IMG/VR virus record: IMGVR_UViG_3300037460_000056
Location: 1 to 29,316 of that record
Source: a virus
DNA length: 29,316 bases
Reading direction: 5' to 3' (one strand)
Below, piece after piece: positions 2,382-16,629 of the stretch. Position 1 is the stretch's first letter. Each line of letters begins with the position of its first letter. The notes under the pieces were generated by a model, which was not told where the DNA came from, searched no databases, and saw only the letters and a program-made list of their open reading frames with translations. A program made the position numbers and the translations under genes.

Positions 2382-4880
2382 ATGACTGCACAGTCAGGTC
2401 TGGGTTTCTCTGGGATCGTAGCAATACAGATTCCGGATGACGGTGCGCCCGGTACAGTTCTTACCAAGCTCACCGCAGACAACTACGACTACGACTGGTT
2501 AGCAGGCGGAGGTGGTGCGAGCACCATCATTGTCGAGGACGAGGGTGCCCCGGTTGGTGTTCCAGCCGACACCCTTGACTTCGTCGGCGCGGGAGTAGTC
2601 GCGTCAGGCGCAGGCACAACTAAGACGATAACAATCCCCGGAGGTGGTGGACCTGCCTCAACCGATTGGCTTGAGTTCGTATCTCAAGCTGTCAATCCCG
2701 GCGTAGTAGCAGCCAACACCCTCTATCAGGATGACGGTTCCAACTTTGATGTTGACTCGGTTGTCATGGGTGACCTTACAGTCCCCATGGTGCTGACTGA
2801 CAACGTTAGTATCGGTGATCCCGGCTTTGAGCAGGGTGGCATCGATGTCGGTGGCGTTACATTCAACGCTACATCGAAGATCAATGATTTCGGTGGCACC
2901 GTCGATGCGATGCTTGTGTTGCACCGTCACTCGACAGCGTTCGGGTCCAACTTAGTTTTCTCACGCTCGAACAGTGACACGTCAGCCCACGCTGCAATGA
3001 CCCCCGGACAGACTATCTCGCAGACAGTTAATGTCGGTTGGAGTGGTACGCATTACGACATCGCAGCCTTCTGCAATGTCGATGTTCCACTGGGCACGAC
3101 GGTCAGCCCGACGTCACTCGCGGGCGAATTCTCTTTCTACACGACGCCTGACCTCTCGAACATTTCACTACTGTCGCTGATCATTGGTTCTGATCAAATC
3201 ATATACGGTGACATCACTCCGGGTGGAACGCTGGACCTTCAAGGGTCTAAGGATGCAGACCGTGGGCGGATCATCGCGCATGGTGGTATCACCATCGACT
3301 GGGATTGGACGACTGATGCGGTCCCTGCAGGTGGCATCACATTTGCGGCAACCATCCCGGCTTCTGGTGGCATCGTCAATGCGAACATCACCATCGCGAA
3401 TGACATCACCATTGATGCCCCTCTCTTCATTCAATCTGCGTTGGACGACAACAGTCTGCTCGAATGGGTAGTGGCTCCGGGATTCGCAGTCACAACACTG
3501 TTCTTCGCTCGTCAAGTTTACCGGTCGCTGACTGCTGCTGTTCCTCCAGCACAGACTTTTGTCTACGCTGCTCAATGCTCCTATGACATTCAAGGTTCAG
3601 GAGCTGTAGTAGTAGCGAACTATCGTGCCTTGAGCTTCGCTCCTATCCTGCGAGCGCGGAATGCCGGTGACACTCTGACCATCAACAACGTCACGGGTTG
3701 CTTCGTTGGTCCTCTCTGGAATACGAACAACGCAACAGCCATTGTGGACTTCGGAACTATCCGTGGTGTGCACATGATCAACCCGGCACCTGTTCTTTTC
3801 GGTCAGTCTCTGGGCACTGAACGCGCTGCAAACATCATCGGCATCGACTATCTCAACATGACGCTCCCTGTCACCGGAGATCGTGTCGTAGTTCGATCAG
3901 CTCTTGCAGCTCTTACAAATAACTTCTTCCTCCAGAACAACGGTGGAGCAGAGTCTGAGTTCGGCTTCGGTGACATTCACTTCAACGACGATACGTGGGT
4001 CAAGTACGGAAACACTCAGGCTAATCCAGATGTGATTGTCGGATGGCAAGCCACTCAAGCATCAATGGTCTGGTCCACGTTCTTCGGTCTCGGTGCCAAC
4101 CCTCTCTACCTGCGTCCATCAGCGACAGACACATGGACGTTCCAACAGAACAACGCTGGGACTGCAGACATTGGTCTCGGCTTCAACGTTAACGCAATTT
4201 CGTTCGGTGTCGTTGATCCAGTACCGAATAGCAACAACTGGTTCGTGCGATTCGAGGGTCCAAACAACCGGCAGGTCCAGTCCGCTGGCGTCTATTCCGA
4301 TGTGTGGTGGACGGCAGGCGGCACCATCGATGTCAACGGTCTGGCCGCTACCGAGATCAACAGCTTCCGTGTTGATGCAAACGTCACAGCGTTGAATGGT
4401 GGTTCCGTGCAAGACCAGTCAGGACTTTTCCTTGCTGGCATGGGCTTCCCCGGCAGCGGTGTGGCAACCCGCATCCAATCGCTTCGTGTTACAGGACGTG
4501 CTCGCATCGATGGAGCCATCAATCTCGGCAGTCACGTGCCTGCGCAGATAACAGCGAACCAGAACGACTACCAGCTTGGAATTTCCAACGCACAACGCAG
4601 CATCAATTTGCTCGACAGTGACGCGGCTTACAACATCACTGGCATCGATTCAACATCAGGGAGCAATACTTACGGGCAACCGGGAGATCGAATCTGTCTG
4701 CACAACATTGGCGCGTTCGCTCTCACGATCACGCATCAAGATGTGCTGAGTCTGGCAGCGAATCGCATCATTACCTCAACAGGCGTAGGCTACGTCATCG
4801 GACCCGACGAGTGCGTCTGGCTCTGGTACGACGATACCGGCGTGGATCGATGGAGAATGCAGGAGGGTACTGGTGCGTAG
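2382..4880 (+). CDS. Large beta-rich fibre- or spike-like virion protein
   Basis: This 832-residue protein starts at ATG 2382, eight bases after the preceding stop, with GAGGT overlapping that stop. Residues about 48-88 form a compact module, IVEDEG..., ADTLDFVGAGV and TKTITIPGGG, shared with the fibre-like protein starting at 7949. The centre is rich in Gly, Asn, Thr and Asp with repeated short strands, as in beta-helical or fibrous phage proteins. Residues about 720-832 resemble a C-terminal beta domain frequent in phage fibre and baseplate-type proteins: PAQITANQNDYQ, NITGI, a hydrophobic 'LTITHQD' strand and a final 'WLWYDDTGVDRWRM' strand. The role is presumably host recognition or a head/tail appendage. 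No catalytic motif was recognised. The end overlaps the next gene by 8 bases. Confidence 0.66.
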   Translation: MTAQSGLGFSGIVAIQIPDDGAPGTVLTKLTADNYDYDWLAGGGGASTIIVEDEGAPVGVPADTLDFVGAGVVASGAGTTKTITIPGGGGPASTDWLEFVSQAVNPGVVAANTLYQDDGSNFDVDSVVMGDLTVPMVLTDNVSIGDPGFEQGGIDVGGVTFNATSKINDFGGTVDAMLVLHRHSTAFGSNLVFSRSNSDTSAHAAMTPGQTISQTVNVGWSGTHYDIAAFCNVDVPLGTTVSPTSLAGEFSFYTTPDLSNISLLSLIIGSDQIIYGDITPGGTLDLQGSKDADRGRIIAHGGITIDWDWTTDAVPAGGITFAATIPASGGIVNANITIANDITIDAPLFIQSALDDNSLLEWVVAPGFAVTTLFFARQVYRSLTAAVPPAQTFVYAAQCSYDIQGSGAVVVANYRALSFAPILRARNAGDTLTINNVTGCFVGPLWNTNNATAIVDFGTIRGVHMINPAPVLFGQSLGTERAANIIGIDYLNMTLPVTGDRVVVRSALAALTNNFFLQNNGGAESEFGFGDIHFNDDTWVKYGNTQANPDVIVGWQATQASMVWSTFFGLGANPLYLRPSATDTWTFQQNNAGTADIGLGFNVNAISFGVVDPVPNSNNWFVRFEGPNNRQVQSAGVYSDVWWTAGGTIDVNGLAATEINSFRVDANVTALNGGSVQDQSGLFLAGMGFPGSGVATRIQSLRVTGRARIDGAINLGSHVPAQITANQNDYQLGISNAQRSINLLDSDAAYNITGIDSTSGSNTYGQPGDRICLHNIGAFALTITHQDVLSLAANRIITSTGVGYVIGPDECVWLWYDDTGVDRWRMQEGTGA
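2515..2646 (+). repeat. Copy A of a module shared with the fibre gene at 7949
   Basis: This stretch encodes about residues 45-88 of the first fibre-like protein. Over 41 aligned residues (IIVEDEG to PGGG) I count 32 identical to copy B at about 8092-8214. The core ADTLDFVGAGV and TKTITIPGGG are unchanged. Both copies lie at the same distance from their start codons, about residue 48. Confidence 0.75.
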
Positions 4881-6426: not shown

Positions 6427-6516
6427 ATGGATAGACACGTCAAAGCTCCTCGCCCACGCGGACATCAACAACGTCCACGCGGTGGACGGGGAAGTAGCGC
6501 ACGCGGAGCGAGATAG
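6427..6516 (+). CDS. 29-residue Arg/Gly/Pro-rich mini-gene
   Basis: A short frame starts at ATG 6427 with GAGG (6418-6421) five bases upstream. It ends in TAG at 6514-6516, immediately before the ATG of the connector adaptor at 6517. The product begins MDRHVKAPRPRGHQQRPRGG and ends SSARGAR: 8 Arg, 1 Lys, 2 His and no acidic residue except Asp2. It exactly fills what would otherwise be a rare gap in this tightly packed operon. Its RG/RP repeats resemble nucleic-acid-binding tails. It could be a real basic micro-protein, or a leader whose translation feeds the downstream start. The call rests on the start signal, the exact junction and the composition. Confidence 0.5.
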   Translation: MDRHVKAPRPRGHQQRPRGGRGSSARGAR

Positions 6517-7590
6517 ATGCCAACATCAGGAACAGTCGGTTCAACAGTTTTTTTGAACCAGCAACTTATCGACCACGCCTTCCGGCGTTGCAAGATGGTT
6601 GAGCAACAGATCACAGGCGAGCATCTGACGATTGCTCTCGAACTGCTGTGGCTGTACACCATGACGCTCAGCAACAAGGGCATCAAGCTGTGGAATGTTG
6701 ATCCGATCCTCTTACCGATCTACGAGCGTAACCAGACTGTGCCGTGTCCACTGGGAACGGAAGACACGTACACGATCAACCTGCGTAATGGTAATCGAGT
6801 CACTGGCGACGCAACTGCATCGGAAGGTGTTGCAGACAACGCGTTCGACGGTGATCTAGCGACAGCGTGCACGCAGTTGGCAGCACTGGGCACGATCACC
6901 ATGGATCTTGGTAGTGATGGCGCGACCGCAATCCCCACCTTCGGAATCATGCCCAACGTTTCCGGACTGTGGGACTACGTGATCGAAGCGTCGAACGATA
7001 ACTTCGTCACTGCGGTGACGTACATCACGAAGACTGAGCAGGAAGTTGTGCAGGACGAGTGGCTCTGGGAAGACGTGCAGGCTCCGTCTCGTGAAACTGA
7101 GTACCAGTACTGGCGGCTGCGTGCAACCGGTACCACGGTGCTCGATGTGATTGAGCTGGTCTACCAGAACAAGCCCAATGAGATTCCGATGTACAAGCTC
7201 AATCGGAACGACTACGCAAATCTACCTAACAAGGTGAGCACTGGGCGACCGACGCAGTTCTGGTATGACAAGCAACGCACGCGACCGGAGATCGAATTGT
7301 GGCCTGCACCCGGTGCTGAGTTCACGTTCGATCAGATAACAGGATTCATTCAACGACAGGTGCAGGACGTCGGTGCATTGACAGACGAACTGGAGGTGCC
7401 TGACCGTTGGTACCTTGCGATTATTTGTGAGCTTGCTCGACAGCTGAGTCGTGAGATTAAAGAGGTGGATGTTTCACAGTTGCCGTTCATCGATACCGAC
7501 GCAGAAAAATATTTGAAAGACGCATGGGATGGCGAGACCGACGAGTCGGAAGCGTACCTGCGTCCTAACATTTCACCGTACACGAGGTAG
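6517..7590 (+). CDS. Head-tail connector adaptor (P22 gp4-like) with discoidin-like insert
   Basis: This 357-residue protein is predicted to join the portal ring to the tail. Residues 1-85 are helical (LIDHAFRRCKMVEQQITGEH, LELLWLYTMTLSNKGIKLW) and end in a PILLPIYER strand, as in P22 gp4/T7 gp11-type adaptors. Residues about 225-357 carry the typical adaptor half: NRNDYANLPNKVSTGRPTQF, IELWPAPGAEF and the helix DRWYLAIICELARQLSR. Between them, about residues 95-220, lies an insert with F5/8-type (discoidin) features: VADNAFDGDLATAC, ITMDLG, YVIEASNDNF and YQYWRLRATGTTVLDVIEL. Such domains often bind sugars. Upstream, GGAG (6504-6507) inside the mini-gene serves as ribosome binding site. A second, insert-free adaptor is encoded at 13619. 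Confidence 0.7.
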   Translation: MPTSGTVGSTVFLNQQLIDHAFRRCKMVEQQITGEHLTIALELLWLYTMTLSNKGIKLWNVDPILLPIYERNQTVPCPLGTEDTYTINLRNGNRVTGDATASEGVADNAFDGDLATACTQLAALGTITMDLGSDGATAIPTFGIMPNVSGLWDYVIEASNDNFVTAVTYITKTEQEVVQDEWLWEDVQAPSRETEYQYWRLRATGTTVLDVIELVYQNKPNEIPMYKLNRNDYANLPNKVSTGRPTQFWYDKQRTRPEIELWPAPGAEFTFDQITGFIQRQVQDVGALTDELEVPDRWYLAIICELARQLSREIKEVDVSQLPFIDTDAEKYLKDAWDGETDESEAYLRPNISPYTR

Positions 7591-7592
7591 TC

Positions 7593-7949
7593 ATGCCAAT
7601 TTTTTTAGATCCAACAGGGAAGACAACGTACGGCATCGGCATTTGCCAGAGATGCTCGCGTAAGTTTTTCCTTGAAGATCTGCACTCGGACCCGAACAGT
7701 CCGGGGCTGAAGGTGTGCATCGATGATCTCGATGACTACGACCCGTATCGTCTGGCCCCACGTCAGGCTGATCGCATCACGTTGCCATTCTATCGACCGG
7801 ACGAAGACCTCACTGTTGGAGGTCCGGATCCAAACGTGAACTTCATCGGTGGTGTGCGTGAAGCTTTTGGTGACAGTCCCCGTGCAACGGAAGATGGTAG
7901 ATTACGTGTGCTTGAAGCATCAGAGATTGACGGAAATGAGGAAGCCTAA
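7593..7949 (+). CDS. Small Cys-containing structural protein
   Basis: This 118-residue protein starts three bases after the adaptor stop, behind GAGG (7584-7587). Its N-terminal half has C18-x2-C21 in GICQRCSRKF, H31 and C42 in LKVCIDDLDDYDPYRL. This could be a small zinc knuckle or ribbon, although only three Cys are present. The core 'CxRCSRKFxLxDL..DPNSPGLxVC.DDLDDYDPYRL.PR' is a pattern I associate with proteins next to connector genes in environmental podoviruses. The C-terminal half is acidic and probably disordered. It overlaps the next gene as TAATG. A connector or tail-attachment role is inferred from position only. Confidence 0.6.
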   Translation: MPIFLDPTGKTTYGIGICQRCSRKFFLEDLHSDPNSPGLKVCIDDLDDYDPYRLAPRQADRITLPFYRPDEDLTVGGPDPNVNFIGGVREAFGDSPRATEDGRLRVLEASEIDGNEEA

Positions 7950-10864
7950 TGCCTAACATAACAATTTCTGGTCTGCCATTTGCGACGTTGCCGTTGGATG
8001 GACCGAACAGCTTCTTCGAGGTGCAGACAATCGAAGCTGGCGTAACGGTCAGTCGCAAGGTTGCATCTGACGATATAAACCTATCCTCTGCCATTGTGAT
8101 TGAGGACGAAGGTGTTCCTCTTGCAGGTGGAGCCGACACGCTCGATTTTGTTGGCGCAGGCGTAACGGCAAGCGGTGCTGGTTCAACGAAAACAATTACG
8201 ATCCCCGGTGGGGGACAGGTTGACTCGGTCGTTAGCGGCGTAAACATCACCATCGACGCTACTGATCCAATTAATCCTATCGCTAACCTCGATGCAGCAA
8301 TCACTGGTATGACTGTCAACGGGGTCGTACTGACTGCAGGTGGTGTTGCGACAAATTACCTCGACGAAACAGGTGCCTATTCACTGCCACCGGGTAGTGG
8401 TCAGGTGGACTCGGTTGGTGGTGGCGTCAACATTAACGTTACCGGAACTGCTGTTGACCCTATTGTCAATCTCGATGCTGCGATCACAGGCGTGAGTGTT
8501 GACGGTGTGACATTGAATGCTGTAGGTGCAGCTACAAACTACCTCGATGAGAGTGGGGCTTACTCTGTGCCTGCCGGTGCTGGTGGTCAGGTGGACTCTG
8601 TTGCCGGTGGTACGAACATCAATGTGTCGGGTACTGGAGTTGACCCCATTGTCAACTTAGACGCTGCGATTACTGGAGTGTCTGTCAACGGAGTCACGCT
8701 TAGTAATGCAGGTGCTATCGGTGACTTCCTCAACGAGCAGGGAAACTACGTTGCTGCTGGAGGGTTCGATCCATCAGCTAACCAGACCATCACAGGCGAT
8801 TGGTCTTTTGAAGGCGAGGTGGTCCTCAACAACCCCGCTGATGATCTTGAGCTTCTGTCGAATGTGTCGCTAAACTTTAGGAATCCAGCCGATACCAGCA
8901 CCACATTCTTACAGTCGCAAGCCGGTCGGATGGAGTGGGGCATTGCTGGTGCTGGATTTGGTTCTGACTATTACTCCTTCGGCATCAGCTTCGCCAGTAT
9001 CCGCTTCCCACGTCCGCTCTACTTCAGTGAACGCGCAGCACAAATAACGCCCATCGCAGGTCAGGGTCAACTCTGGGTTCGCAACGATGCGCCGAACAAT
9101 CTCATATTCACCGACGATGATGGTACTGACTTTCAATTGAATACGGGACTTACACCTTGGACATCAGACATCGATGGTGGAGGGTTCAATCTGGAGGGTG
9201 CTGGTGTTGTCTTCTTGGTCGCGCAACCTACGGCTGATCCAGATGTTACTGGTCGAGGTCAAATCTGGGTGGAAGGAGTGCCGGGTGACCCACTCTGGAG
9301 TGAAGTTGAGTTACTCGCTGACTTCGATGGTGCTGATGGTGCGACTTCATACACCGAGATTTCGGTCAATACAGCTAGCGCAACGTTCTTTGGAACCGCT
9401 GAGCTAGACACTGCGGAGTTCAACTCTGGAGTATCATCTCTACTGCTTGACGGTAACAGTGACTGGGTCACCTTCCCTGATATTGCGGCTTATGATCTTG
9501 GAACACAAAGCTGGACCATCGAGGGCTTCGTTCGATTCAACACTCTGCCACCGCTACAGACGTCAGCAGGTCCCGGCTTCGTTTTGTACGATTCGAGAAA
9601 AGGCGGCAGTGCCTATGTTCAATACGGCATCATTCAAGATGCCTTTGGCTTCCGCGTCAGGCTTGTCGGTCAAGACTGGGGTGCTGAGGTTGGAACCATC
9701 AGTGGTGGCATTAGCACTGGCGTCTGGTATCACTGGGCAGTCACCCGAGATGTAGGCGGCGACAATAATATCCGTGCGTATTTCAACGGTCTCTACGAGG
9801 TTGCTGACTTCGGTGTTTCACCGGCTGATCTGGGTAATCCTGATGCAGCGATCATCATTGGTTGTCGCGATGCTACAGATGCATTCACGGATGGCTGGAT
9901 TGACGATGTTCGCATGACAGTCGGCACTGCCCGATACGCTGGAACTGGTGCGTACTCTGTACCGACTACTCCATACGCTGGTGCTCCCGCGCCTTTAGAC
10001 TTATTTTTCACTGATGATGATGGTCTAGACTTCCAACTGAACGCAGGAGGTGGTGGCGAATCCCTTCAGGCAACGATGGCTATCGGTGCTACCACGACGA
10101 TTGACTTAGAGATAATCACTGGCGCGGCACTTACGATCTTCGATGGTGCTGATGTTGACAGCGTCTCGATAGAGATCAACTCCACGACGATGGCTCCTGC
10201 GGAAGCGTTGGTCTTTCTCGCGACTGCTAACGTCGAGGTCTACTCCTTCGATGAAGGCATCAACATTGACAACGGAGATCTGAACTTAAATCTTGGTTCG
10301 GTAAACTTCTACAGATTCGGTGACTCGGTCAGCAGCAGTTTAGGCAGCGATGGCACTGACATAAGAATGCAGGTCGTTGGAGGCACATCTGTCTTCTTCG
10401 TTCAGGCTGACTCAATTCGTCAGAGTGAAGCAGCGGCTCCTGCTCCCAACATTGCGGGTAGAGGTCAGTGGTGGACACGTTCATCAGCTCCTTGCCGCCC
10501 GACTTACACTGATGACACCGACGTTGATCAGCTGCTTGATCCCTCGATCTCTGAAATCATTTCGGTGGTTGCAAGTCGAACGGGCATCCTGACTGACAAG
10601 GGTAAGACGGTAGCCTTCACGGGCGGAACTGTAGCCCAGACGATGACCATCCCTGCGAGCGGTGCGGTCGCTTATCAGATTGGTACGCTCCTCGCGTGGG
10701 ACAACAGCGGATCAGTTTCTATCAGCATTGCGATCACGACTGACACGTTGATCTTCGCGGATGACAATTCAACAGGAACAAGAACGCTGGCAGCAGGTGG
10801 AGCAGCGGTCGCTCAGTTAGTAGGTGCGGGTGTCTGGAAGATCGCAGGAGCAGGACTAAGCTAA
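7949..10864 (+). CDS. Large fibre-like protein with tandem repeats and a LamG-type domain
   Basis: This 971-residue protein is coupled as TAATG. Parts in order: N-terminal strand ITISGLPFATLPLDG (typical of phage fibre N-termini); the shared IVIEDEG-to-PGGG module (about 49-89); three 62-residue tandem repeats (90-275); and a unit ending GQLWVRNDAPNN...FTDDDGTDFQLN (about 362-398). A second copy of that unit begins GRGQIWVE (about 433) but is split by a concanavalin/LamG-type domain (about 452-665: SLLLDGNSDWVTFPD, SWTIEGFVRF, WYHWAVTRD, AYFNGLYE, GWIDDVRMT). It resumes at FTDDDGLDFQLN (about 687). A degenerate third copy lies at about 837. The C-terminal domain ends GAGVWKIAGAGLS. The likely role is glycan binding by a tail or head fibre. 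No hydrolase motif was seen. Confidence 0.7.
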   Translation: MPNITISGLPFATLPLDGPNSFFEVQTIEAGVTVSRKVASDDINLSSAIVIEDEGVPLAGGADTLDFVGAGVTASGAGSTKTITIPGGGQVDSVVSGVNITIDATDPINPIANLDAAITGMTVNGVVLTAGGVATNYLDETGAYSLPPGSGQVDSVGGGVNINVTGTAVDPIVNLDAAITGVSVDGVTLNAVGAATNYLDESGAYSVPAGAGGQVDSVAGGTNINVSGTGVDPIVNLDAAITGVSVNGVTLSNAGAIGDFLNEQGNYVAAGGFDPSANQTITGDWSFEGEVVLNNPADDLELLSNVSLNFRNPADTSTTFLQSQAGRMEWGIAGAGFGSDYYSFGISFASIRFPRPLYFSERAAQITPIAGQGQLWVRNDAPNNLIFTDDDGTDFQLNTGLTPWTSDIDGGGFNLEGAGVVFLVAQPTADPDVTGRGQIWVEGVPGDPLWSEVELLADFDGADGATSYTEISVNTASATFFGTAELDTAEFNSGVSSLLLDGNSDWVTFPDIAAYDLGTQSWTIEGFVRFNTLPPLQTSAGPGFVLYDSRKGGSAYVQYGIIQDAFGFRVRLVGQDWGAEVGTISGGISTGVWYHWAVTRDVGGDNNIRAYFNGLYEVADFGVSPADLGNPDAAIIIGCRDATDAFTDGWIDDVRMTVGTARYAGTGAYSVPTTPYAGAPAPLDLFFTDDDGLDFQLNAGGGGESLQATMAIGATTTIDLEIITGAALTIFDGADVDSVSIEINSTTMAPAEALVFLATANVEVYSFDEGINIDNGDLNLNLGSVNFYRFGDSVSSSLGSDGTDIRMQVVGGTSVFFVQADSIRQSEAAAPAPNIAGRGQWWTRSSAPCRPTYTDDTDVDQLLDPSISEIISVVASRTGILTDKGKTVAFTGGTVAQTMTIPASGAVAYQIGTLLAWDNSGSVSISIAITTDTLIFADDNSTGTRTLAAGGAAVAQLVGAGVWKIAGAGLS
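8092..8214 (+). repeat. Copy B of the fibre module shared with 2382-4880
   Basis: This encodes about residues 49-88 of the 971-residue fibre-like protein: IVIEDEG, ADTLDFVGAGV, ASGAG and TKTITIPGGG. It matches copy A at about 2515-2646 in 32 of 41 residues by hand alignment, while the surrounding sequences differ. It directly precedes the three 62-residue tandem repeats. Confidence 0.75.
8216..8773 (+). repeat. Three tandem 186-bp repeats in the fibre gene
   Basis: The units begin at CAG codons at 8216, 8402 and 8588 and each encode 62 residues. Each starts QVDSV, contains a form of NLDAAITG, then V(N/D)GV(V/T)L, then a form of LDE(T/S)GAYS(L/V)P. Unit 3 is the most diverged at its end (LNEQGNYVAAGG). 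Protein identity is high while DNA has drifted at third positions. This suggests an old duplication held by selection rather than a recent slippage event. Confidence 0.85.
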
Positions 10865-13618: not shown

Positions 13619-14263
13619 ATGCCGGTCTCGATGACATTCGACTCACTACAGGCAGACCTTCGGGCCTATCTGGAGCGAGGCACAGCTGTCGATCCAACCG
13701 TATTCGACCAACTGCCCAGCCTTATTAATCTGGCTGAGCGTGAGTTGGCAAACCGGTTGAAGATCCTCGGCTTCGTGACTGTGGTCACAGACACGTTAGG
13801 TGTTGGACAATCGGTAATACCTAAGCCTGATCGCTGGCGTGACACTATCAGCATCAACTTCGGTGTGGGCGCAACACAGGTACGCACCCCCTTGTTTGCC
13901 CGAAGCTACGAGTACTGTCGGCGCTATTGGCCGGATGAAGATTTGACTGCTCAGCCGAAGTTCTACGCTGACTACGATTACTTCAACTGGCTGATCGCTC
14001 CGACAGCTGACTTCGCATATCCATTCGAGGTCAATTACTGGGAGTTGCCTGCGCTACTGGATAGCGTCAACCAAACGAATTGGTCGTCGGACTTTGCCCC
14101 GAACGCCCTACTTCATGGCGCGCTCCTGCAGGCAACTCCATTTTTAAAGAACGACGAACGCATCGCAACGTGGGAAGCGATTTACGAAAAGGACGTTGCG
14201 ATTCTTGAAGGGCAAGACATGAAACGCATCATCGATAGGAACGTTACGAGGGAGAACGTCTGA
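13619..14263 (+). CDS. Connector adaptor protein (SU10/P22 gp4-type)
   Basis: This 214-residue protein is the canonical, insert-free adaptor that sits between portal and tail. It opens with MTFDSLQADLRAYLERG and the helix LPSLINLAERELANRLKILG. A strand pair follows (VGQSVIPKPDRWRDTISINF). Then comes the diagnostic half: LFARSYEYCRRYWPDEDL, PKFYADYDYFNWLIAPTADF, PFEVNYWELP, and the helix NALLHGALLQATPFLKNDER with IATWEAIYEKDVAI. Length and order match adaptors of the SU10/P22 gp4 type. AAGGAG (13607-13612) precedes ATG 13619. The stop overlaps the next start as TGATG. A longer adaptor with a discoidin-like insert is encoded at 6517, so the virion may carry two rings or alternative versions. 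Confidence 0.74.
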   Translation: MPVSMTFDSLQADLRAYLERGTAVDPTVFDQLPSLINLAERELANRLKILGFVTVVTDTLGVGQSVIPKPDRWRDTISINFGVGATQVRTPLFARSYEYCRRYWPDEDLTAQPKFYADYDYFNWLIAPTADFAYPFEVNYWELPALLDSVNQTNWSSDFAPNALLHGALLQATPFLKNDERIATWEAIYEKDVAILEGQDMKRIIDRNVTRENV

Positions 14264-16629
14264 TGGGTTACACAAACGTATTTGGTGGAGAGTTGATCTT
14301 CCCCTCGCAGACGAGCTACCTCGAAATCACAACGGCTATTGACGTCCAACTTGTCTGGCCGCGTGAGCAGCAAATTGAAGGGAACGATGTTGTAGCAGAC
14401 TTCCTCGACATTAATGCTTCGGTACTCGGTCTCAACATCGACATGCCTGACGCTCGTTCTGTGAGCACAGGCAACAAGACAACCATCAGTGCGATAGGTG
14501 ATGACTTCACGTTGCGTGATGCTACGGGTGGTGTCATCCAGTTCGCAACGAACGGCACGCAGTGGGTCATCGTACTGACTGATAACTCGACCGAGGCTGG
14601 CATATGGTCGGGCTTTCAACTGGGAGCAGCCACAACACTGGCGTCTGCTGCTGCGTTAGCTGGTTCAGGTTTGCAGGCTGCTGCTTTTGGTCTGCTCGAA
14701 CAGATCATCGACTCCGATGAAGAAGCTGCGACACCTTTTGATGTGGTTGACGGTGATCGAGCGAAGTGCTTGATCTACACGGCAGGTGCAGGTACCGCGA
14801 ACTTGCCGTCAGCAGGAACAGTTTTCAACAACTGGTTCTGCATGATCCGTAACTCTGGTAGTGGCACGCTCAATGTGTTGCCTCCGTCTGGTCAGATCGA
14901 TGGTGGCGCAAGTATTAACCTCGATCCAAACGACAGTGCATTCTTCTTCACGGATGGCACCGACTATTACACCATCGGGCTTAGCTCCGGCTCGACCATT
15001 GCGTTCGACTTCGTGTCGCTTGCGGTACCGGGCTCTGGTGACTTCGTACTCTCTGGTGCAAACCTCGACAGGATCTCGTATCGATTCACGGGCGCACTGA
15101 CGGGTAACCGACGCATCGTTGTACCCAATACGACGCAGCAGTACTGGGCAGATAATCAGACGAGTGGAGCTTTCTCATTGGAGGTCGTCACTGCAGCAGG
15201 CGCAGGAATAACCATCCCACAAGGGCAGAGCGTAATTGTTTATTGCGATGGCACTGACGTAATCAACGCGACGTCATCTACCAGTGTGGCATTCCCGATC
15301 ACCATCGGTCAGGGTGGTACGAGTGCGACGACAGCATCGGGCGCACGTACGAATTTGAATGCTGCGTTCGACGGCATCTTGATTGAGACGCAAGCACTCT
15401 CCGGTCTAGCCGGTGGTGGTGATCTCACAGCTAATATGCAGCTCTTGTTGGACGTCGATAACCTGACAGCAGAGACGGTCATCGATACTGCAGCAGACTT
15501 TGTTGGTATCTGGGATGCAGACGCAGGCGCGATGCGTAAGTTCCTCATCGAGGACGTGGTGCCTTCACCTGATAGCTTGGTCGATAGCGGTGGCAACATT
15601 GCAGTATTTGCTGCTGGTAGCAGTAACGTACAGCTACGCAGTGTTGGTGACTCGGACTCAGTACCTCGTCGGCTGCAATTCACGTGGCAGGATGAGACGG
15701 TCGTCGGTTACATCGGTTGGAACTCCTTCTCGCAAGAGATGTTCATCACCAACTCGATCAACCATGCAGATGGCACCATCGAGATCTTCACCAACCATGC
15801 CAGTGCAGAGATTTTGATAGGCAATAGGCTTCGTATTCTGTCTGGCCTTCAAGTTCGTGGTAGTGCCAATAACAACGCAAGCATTCAATTGACGACTACG
15901 GCTTACGCAAACCGCGCATCCATTGGCTATGGCGGCAGCGATGAACTCATCTTTGAGAATCTGGCACAACAGACTATTACCTTCCAAGGCGAGGATAGCA
16001 TCACCGCTACCGTCTCGATGTTGGAGATGAATCCAAACACAGGTTGTCATCTGTTCTGGAAAGGTGATGGTGAGATTGCACGCAGTGCATCACTAGCTAA
16101 TGGTGGCTTCGAGGTCAACAACACGTTGACTGGTGGAGGCTTCGAACGTGTCCTAACAGTCAGCGATAGTCCTTCAGTTGTGCAAGCTGTGAAGACAGCG
16201 AATGAAAATGTCGTTGCTTCAACCACGTACCAGAACGACAACCACCTGATCAACATTGTATTAGCTGTAGGTCGTTGGGGGCTTTCCGGATTTTTCCAGT
16301 ATGGAGTCACTAACGCTTCAGCTGGTTTCAAATTCCGTTGGACCGATACCGGAGGCTCGTTTGCAGGTGCTCCCTACACGTTTACTTACCGGGCGAACAC
16401 TGGAACAAGCCCATCGAATGCGGACACATACTTTACTACCCTAGATGGATCAACTGGAGCATTGATTACATCACTCAACACTGGAGAAGGTGTTGGTTGG
16501 CTCAATGGCAACTGCGAGATTATTACAAGCCCAATCACTCTGACTACTCAGTGGGCTCAGGTCGTCGCCACAGGTACGACATCGTTTGCTGAAAACAGCT
16601 GGCTACGATTCACTCGGACAGATACATAA
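14263..16629 (+). CDS. Large fibre-like virion protein
   Basis: This 788-residue protein is coupled by TGATG to the adaptor. Residues 1-105 form a beta domain (ELIFPSQTSYLEIT, VQLVWPREQQ, RSVSTGNKTTISAIGDDFTL, WVIVLTDNS) of the kind found at virion-binding ends of fibres and needle-like proteins. Two beta modules follow (about 160-245, with FMIRNSGSGTLNVLPPSGQ-like text, and about 255-350). Next is a fibre-type junction FPITIGQGGTSATTASGART (about 347-366), then Gly/Asn/Thr-rich shaft sequence. The C-terminal part (about 670-788) is a beta domain (FQYGVTNASAGFKFRW, WAQVVATGTTSF) that may be the receptor-binding tip. The role is inferred to be host attachment. No enzyme motif was seen. The end overlaps the next gene as TAATG. 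Confidence 0.65.
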   Translation: MGYTNVFGGELIFPSQTSYLEITTAIDVQLVWPREQQIEGNDVVADFLDINASVLGLNIDMPDARSVSTGNKTTISAIGDDFTLRDATGGVIQFATNGTQWVIVLTDNSTEAGIWSGFQLGAATTLASAAALAGSGLQAAAFGLLEQIIDSDEEAATPFDVVDGDRAKCLIYTAGAGTANLPSAGTVFNNWFCMIRNSGSGTLNVLPPSGQIDGGASINLDPNDSAFFFTDGTDYYTIGLSSGSTIAFDFVSLAVPGSGDFVLSGANLDRISYRFTGALTGNRRIVVPNTTQQYWADNQTSGAFSLEVVTAAGAGITIPQGQSVIVYCDGTDVINATSSTSVAFPITIGQGGTSATTASGARTNLNAAFDGILIETQALSGLAGGGDLTANMQLLLDVDNLTAETVIDTAADFVGIWDADAGAMRKFLIEDVVPSPDSLVDSGGNIAVFAAGSSNVQLRSVGDSDSVPRRLQFTWQDETVVGYIGWNSFSQEMFITNSINHADGTIEIFTNHASAEILIGNRLRILSGLQVRGSANNNASIQLTTTAYANRASIGYGGSDELIFENLAQQTITFQGEDSITATVSMLEMNPNTGCHLFWKGDGEIARSASLANGGFEVNNTLTGGGFERVLTVSDSPSVVQAVKTANENVVASTTYQNDNHLINIVLAVGRWGLSGFFQYGVTNASAGFKFRWTDTGGSFAGAPYTFTYRANTGTSPSNADTYFTTLDGSTGALITSLNTGEGVGWLNGNCEIITSPITLTTQWAQVVATGTTSFAENSWLRFTRTDT

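Follow-up and report, generated by a model that had tools for sequence, protein, structure and literature searches.

The open reading frame at 6517–7590 of the window (the whole 29,316-nucleotide stretch analyzed here) is, as judged by profile comparisons and structure models, a tail adaptor of the T7/SU10 type, a ring protein of the dodecameric type. The middle of this protein is, on the same kinds of evidence, a β-sandwich of the F5/8 type C (galactose-binding-like) family, and the insertion is real, old, and conserved. The window contains structural genes of a phage, and its close kin are podophage-like genomes of approximately 57 to 62 kb. The reading frame starts with ATG and is preceded by GGAG at 6505–6508, 8 bases upstream. 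The gene is divided as follows:

6517..7590, plus strand: predicted tail adaptor 1 with inserted F5/8-like domain (P0001), 357 aa, stop codon included; from the reading frame, its relatives, and the model.
6517..6798, plus strand: N-terminal adaptor core, residues 1–94, with helices 14–24 and 34–53 and strands 59–67, 74–76, and 81–94; from the alignment with insert-free adaptors and the secondary structure of the model.
6799..7170, plus strand: inserted jelly-roll, F5/8 type C/CBM32-like, residues 95–218; from a single gap against the insert-free profile, fold matches, and Pfam matches in 27/55 relatives.
7171..7587, plus strand: C-terminal adaptor core, residues 219–357, with an LNRxDYxxLPxK segment, strands 226–281, and helices 296–313 and 319–338; from the alignment and the model.

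The segments ADNAFDGD, TMDLG, YVIEASNDNF, and YWRLRATGTT, on which the sequence-only reading had based a discoidin-like domain within a head–tail adaptor, are all found in the translation of P0001. The pattern goes beyond chance because relatives occur in 40 IMG/VR loci in a single-sequence search and in 281 related stretches in an alignment-based search, the best 80 of these 281 being kept. A tblastn search of 50,697 phage records matched P0001 in 12 of them. Five match over the whole length, namely four Caulobacter phages (36% identity) and ctpbd312, which is annotated as a tail adaptor; the other seven match the C-terminal part only, six of them being proteins of 220 to 231 residues that lack the middle and the seventh the 312-aa protein of HTVC027P, which carries another, different insert. 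Several database relatives are annotated as tail adaptor, portal-adaptor, or Pam1 adaptor, and many copies as hypothetical protein. P0001 is matched by no Pfam family at E 0.1, SU10_adaptor (PF24175) and F5/8 type C included, and NCBIfam holds no family for the four proteins tested; therefore, P0001 bears no curated name. In PHROG, a weak match to phrog_12985 (E 3.3e-8) covers residues 213–334. Solved structures searched by sequence with single proteins returned nothing useful, and the same holds for the insert-free profile.

The adaptor assignment is carried by the two flanks. In hhalign, the profile of 55 insert-bearing sequences (A3) aligns to that of 41 insert-free sequences (A4) with a probability of 99.9 and an E value of 3.9e-36; residues 1–94 and approximately 219–357 are aligned, and approximately 95–218 form one single gap. 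SU10_adaptor is matched by 38 of the 41 aligned insert-free members, with a best E value of 5e-15 for the protein termed L208, and at E 0.1 by only two of the 55 insert-bearing members (best 1.1e-4). The AlphaFold2 model of P0001 (pLDDT 84.8, pTM 0.68) features helices 14–24, 34–53, 296–313, and 319–338 and strands 59–94 and 210–281, which together form a four-helix bundle with dock strands. The model of insert-free L208 features the same architecture minus the insert, at middling quality (pLDDT 73.6, pTM 0.45), and the C-terminal portal-embracing part has low pLDDT and is not resolved in either model. The best Foldseek matches of the L208 model are portal–tail adaptors—those of cyanophage A4, VP1, GP4, KHP30, Pa223, B2, and SU10—with TM-scores that are low (0.2–0.4), as expected for hinged domains. 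By VIA, L208 matches the adaptor of LME-1 (Z 11.5, 2.6 Å over 105 residues), P22 gp4 (Z 10.9), T7 gp11 (Z 10.4), and Sf6 gp7 (Z 9.7), with VP1, Carin-1, HRP29, GP4, and others at Z 10–11.5; several of the long alignments have an rmsd of approximately 11, and only the shorter ones, with 2.4 to 3.6 Å over approximately 100 residues, are strong. The earlier proposal of a portal–tail ring adaptor carrying a separable discoidin-like insert is borne out by hhalign, the models, and the Pfam matches of the relatives.

The insertion site can be located with respect to the fibre dock of known adaptors. In the excerpted description of the T7 tail (PMC6702177), gp11 has three parts: its helix bundle is accompanied by a fibre dock, made of five antiparallel strands, and by an embracing helix at the C terminus. 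SU10 gp11 is built likewise, with a dock, in the excerpted description of that phage (PMC9509320). Both excerpts give the dock as absent from the adaptors of P22 and Sf6. The window adaptor shares with T7 and SU10 gp11 (PF24175) the four-helix bundle, the β-dock between helices 2 and 3, and the location of the gene among structural genes. In T7 and SU10, however, the small dock is all that is present, whereas the window adaptor adds a 124-residue F5/8-like module between the dock strands. P22 gp4 and Sf6 gp7 resemble it in the helix-bundle fold, as the Z scores of the insert-free model indicate, but the insertion site has no counterpart there, given the lack of a dock in the two excerpts. The label gp4-like of the sequence-only reading, hence, holds for the helix-bundle fold but calls for refinement: dock-like strands are present in the models of both P0001 and L208, which a P22 gp4-type adaptor without a dock domain would not have. 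In the P0001 model, the insert sits between dock strands 81–94 and 210–224; the equivalents in the L208 model are strands 80–90 and 98–104, joined by a turn at 91–97. The domain is therefore a dock-hairpin insertion. By analogy with T7 and SU10, whose docks carry the fibres at the outside of the ring, an outward display of the domain near the neck is plausible, and the copy number of modules on the ring would likewise be that of these phages.

Residues 92–219 of P0001 are modeled as a separate jelly-roll with 10-residue pLDDT means of 84 to 95, and the monomer prediction thus gives no sign of the middle being part of the adaptor core—the outcome that the sequence-only reading had named as its refutation. 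The best VIA match of this jelly-roll is the CBM62 of Xyl5A (2yg0; Z 17.6, 2.0 Å over 124 residues, 22% identity). Foldseek matches it to 2yfu at E 9.5e-8; many CBM32 modules are among the VIA and Foldseek matches, and the Foldseek matches also include APC10/Doc1 chains. F5_F8_type_C (PF00754) is found in 27 of the 55 insert-bearing members (best E 4.5e-8), P0001 itself being unmatched, and PF22633 in 12 of the 55. Searched against the PDB, the A3 profile hits glycosidases that bear CBM32 modules, at E 0.004–0.02. The discoidin-like character read from the sequence is, hence, upheld by the fold matches and by PF00754 in the relatives. The insert alone, searched by tblastn in the 50,697 phage records, yields the adaptor of ctpbd312 (E 2e-11) and, apart from two rows at chance level, nothing else. 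Domains of the F5/8 type C, CBM32, and CBM62 families are, as a rule, attached to proteins that are secreted or located at the surface. The insert has in common with them the fold, a D-x-D-x-x-T loop, and the family text; unlike them, the copy in the window sits inside a virion ring protein.

Homologs with and without the insert, for which a search had been proposed, both exist, and their flanks align around the one gap. Across 332 aligned proteins of the fetched loci, a total that includes both P0001 and the copy of it in its own locus, L041, the span between P0001 residues 94 and 219 holds 118 to 126 residues in 92 proteins, 94 or 97 in 81, 75 in one, and 0 to 20 in 158, the class frequencies being meaningless because the relatives were gathered by class-specific queries (best 80 loci each), some with patterns inside the insert. 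The length of about 125 residues read at the outset is, hence, right for the window protein. The classes are discrete, with no protein between 20 and 75 or between 75 and 94 residues. These numbers replace earlier ones from a split HMMER count (98 full, 74 short, 158 none, and 1 partial of 331 loci), in which some short forms had been misplaced as full.

The insert-free adaptors of Roseobacter phage CRP-901, Pelagibacter phage HTVC023P, DSL-LC04, and Planktothrix phage Pag-Yong1 are homologous to P0001 over both flanks and have 0 to 20 residues where the window protein has 124. The adaptor of the Caulobacter phages RW, RLK, KcrB, and GB2A (327–328 aa) is 36% identical over its full length and has the insert; here it comprises 94 residues and lacks the positions of T116, C118, G125, and W152, with D111 and E213 mostly lost. 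In a tree calculated without the insert columns by a quick method, with a warning of long branches joining, from 81 of 83 representatives (L303 and L326 being excluded as partial), the insert and no-insert states are separated by one change on a branch with an SH-aLRT of 99, although the class-specific gathering may have missed an insert-free sequence within the insert clade. The shortened forms are one group (SH-aLRT 96) nested inside the insert clade. Within the sampled tree, the sequences demonstrate a single origin of the insert. The simple reading is that the insert was gained once and later shortened once; counts alone cannot separate gain from loss, and one gain is favored because insert-free rows dominate outside the clade and the domain belongs to a family known elsewhere. 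The adaptor of Pelagibacter phage HTVC027P (L045:5503–6438) carries an insert of another kind in this region, 75 residues long within the aligned span, which suggests that unrelated domains can be accommodated in the dock region. The adaptor of phage 023Pt_psg01 (L330:2629–3723) bears approximately 120 extra N-terminal residues, which end in YYCTAHSGMGN text and have no Pfam match; similar text occurs inside the CxxC-type protein 3′ of the adaptor of locus L219, as if an accessory domain moves between neck genes.

Conservation of the insert falls slightly below that of the core. Over 55 sequences, pairwise identity averages 0.472 in the insert, against 0.537 and 0.527 in the flanks. The dN/dS ratios in 10 pairs of five sequences amount to 0.080–0.199 for the insert, 0.047–0.121 for the N-terminal flank, and 0.037–0.107 for the C-terminal flank, with the insert above both flanks in nine of the 10 pairs. 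As estimated from these alignments, strong purifying selection acts on the insert, whose rate of evolution is nearly as low as that of the ring core. Residues G104, D111, G143, W184, D186, and R200 are invariant in 67/67 unique full inserts; together with the low dN/dS, this indicates constraint on the fold of the insert. Three of the conserved positions may bind a metal ion:

6826..6870, plus strand: putative calcium loop, G-x-A-x-N-A-F-D-x-D-x-x-T-x-C, residues 104–118; conserved, and missing or altered in the shortened clade.
7153..7155, plus strand: E213, a putative third ligand for calcium where the domain ends; E in 66/67 full and 10/58 short unique sequences.

D111, T116, and E213 presumably correspond to the calcium ligands of CBM32-like domains, that is, an Asp, a loop Thr, and a Glu near the end. 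They are present in 67/67, 62/67, and 66/67 unique full inserts, respectively. In the 58 unique short inserts, D111 is replaced in 56—the short-form alignment being uncertain around positions 104–113—T116 falls in a gap in all 58, and E213 is kept in 10, with Gln in 38. G143, S159, W184, D186, and R200 are retained in 58/58.

The adaptor gene is followed by a small protein and a spike-like protein, and a second adaptor–fibre pair is found further downstream:

7593..7949, plus strand: CxxC-containing protein, 118 aa; directly 3′ of adaptor 1 in 90/90 full, 75/76 short, and 137/145 insert-free loci with room (iterated profile).
7949..10864, plus strand: spike- or fibre-like protein, 971 aa; Laminin_G_3 at residues 501–656 (E 1.5e-12), N terminus conserved, rest variable.
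13619..14263, plus strand: second adaptor, insert-free, 214 aa (P0002), SU10_adaptor family; PF24175 at E 4.6e-23, phrog_2941 at E 2.8e-24.
14263..16629, plus strand: tail-fibre-like protein, 788 aa, directly 3′ of adaptor 2; phrog_12796 at E 1.7e-7.

The CxxC protein, in which a further cysteine is present, belongs to no Pfam or PHROG family, and in some relatives, it bears long repeat-rich extensions. A single-sequence search had placed it in 0/158 insert-free loci; this apparent absence was overturned by the iterated profile. The orthology of the insert-bearing and insert-free adaptors is supported because this downstream protein is common to both. The distal parts of the spike are swapped between close relatives, and its N-terminal anchor is conserved. 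This anchor had been considered as the partner of the insert, since phmmer detected it in 49/98 full, 0/74 short, and 0/158 insert-free loci; the candidate was dropped when an iterated profile—a kind that can drift—placed the anchor family beside the adaptor in 68/85 full, 16/69 short, and 47/127 insert-free loci with room. The 832-aa protein at 2382–4880 has N-terminal text similar to that of the 971-aa protein (VEDEG.P...ADTLDFVGAGV), which suggests a module common to these two fibre-like proteins. By gene order, the phage appears to have two adaptor-plus-fibre units, with the 7949 spike after the CxxC gene and the 14263 fibre after the second adaptor. Paralogy of the two adaptors is unsupported: The A3 and A4 profiles have no significant match to P0002 alone (E 0.17 and 0.7), and the P0001 family and P0002 are linked as adaptors only through PF24175 and the fold. 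Relatives of both co-occur in the Caulobacter phages, HTVC023P, HTVC027P, and DSL-LC04. According to the introduction of a T7 paper (PMC11784390), a podophage tail contains between one and three dodecameric adaptors, and GP4 is represented by two different adaptor-like chains among the Foldseek matches of L208, so two adaptors are not new.

The following arrangement is proposed. A complete F5/8 type C β-sandwich takes the place of the hairpin between two dock strands, and approximately 12 such modules, each perhaps stabilized by a bound metal ion, would surround the neck as a collar at the level at which T7-like adaptors hold their fibres. The module would offer a surface on which the base of the spike or fibre, or else the capsid rim, is docked or braced, and would not be the part that chooses the host. 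We consider it an even call whether some 12 modules do ring the neck at dock level as a fixed docking or bracing surface; a fixed structural collar is, in any case, more likely than a host-choosing tool. The host adhesion suggested by the sequence-only reading is disfavored because the insert is conserved while the neighboring spike turns over: In the 20 nearest loci, leaving aside the identical L001, the insert is 67–90% identical, and most distal spike segments are without a match. A related clade has, in addition, lost part of the module. Fibre anchoring, suggested alongside, is possible, but the insert is not required for it, since the spike anchor family also stands beside insert-free adaptors.

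The modules might instead bind glycans, as 12 weak neck lectins that hold on to a common surface polysaccharide and add avidity to the spikes. The closest solved folds, CBM62 and CBM32, and the CBM32-bearing glycosidases found by the A3 profile point this way, as does a position that is in principle exposed to solvent. If it chose the host, the domain should turn over as the spike does; it is under purifying selection without such turnover, although conservation does not speak against the binding of a common ligand. The same fold is, moreover, widely used to bind protein or lipid, the APC10/Doc1 chains being an example, and the short clade retained a truncated form. On balance, glycan binding is improbable, though worth keeping in mind. 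We rate as rather unlikely that the domain lacks a partner and is carried in a permissive loop as a neutral or merely stabilizing passenger. The region does tolerate changes in length, with 75 residues of another insert in HTVC027P, a shortened form in the Caulobacter clade, and none in others, and of the three parts of the protein, the insert is the least conserved; against this stand the dN/dS of 0.08–0.20, the six residues invariant in all unique full inserts, and the discrete length classes. That the protein is no adaptor at all but a fibre or minor head protein sharing its helices would agree with the rarity of SU10_adaptor matches in the insert-bearing members and with the many copies annotated as hypothetical. 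It is very hard to reconcile with the E value of 3.9e-36 to insert-free adaptors, the adaptor fold matches of the latter, the common downstream neighbor, and the adaptor annotations, and we give it hardly any weight.

The literature search, with most subscription journals outside its scope, revealed no adaptor described as containing a discoidin or F5/8 domain. The adaptor, the domain, and necks with several adaptors are each known; their combination was not found in that literature. The adaptor ring is among the most constrained parts of the virion, and T7-like phages hold their fibres at the dock hairpin. The presence of a conserved module of lectin fold at this very hairpin indicates that the outside of the ring is open to domain insertion. 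This gives a name to a protein annotated only as hypothetical in several records, and it provides a definite neck structure that can be put to the test in a clade with culturable Caulobacter phages among its members. More tentatively, and with the balance somewhat against it, a 12-fold lectin-fold collar inside the adaptor may be a widespread, previously undescribed neck design, in which the dock hairpin hosts accessory domains—the discoidin domain here and another in HTVC027P—and would thereby provide a second, host-independent adhesive or docking surface.
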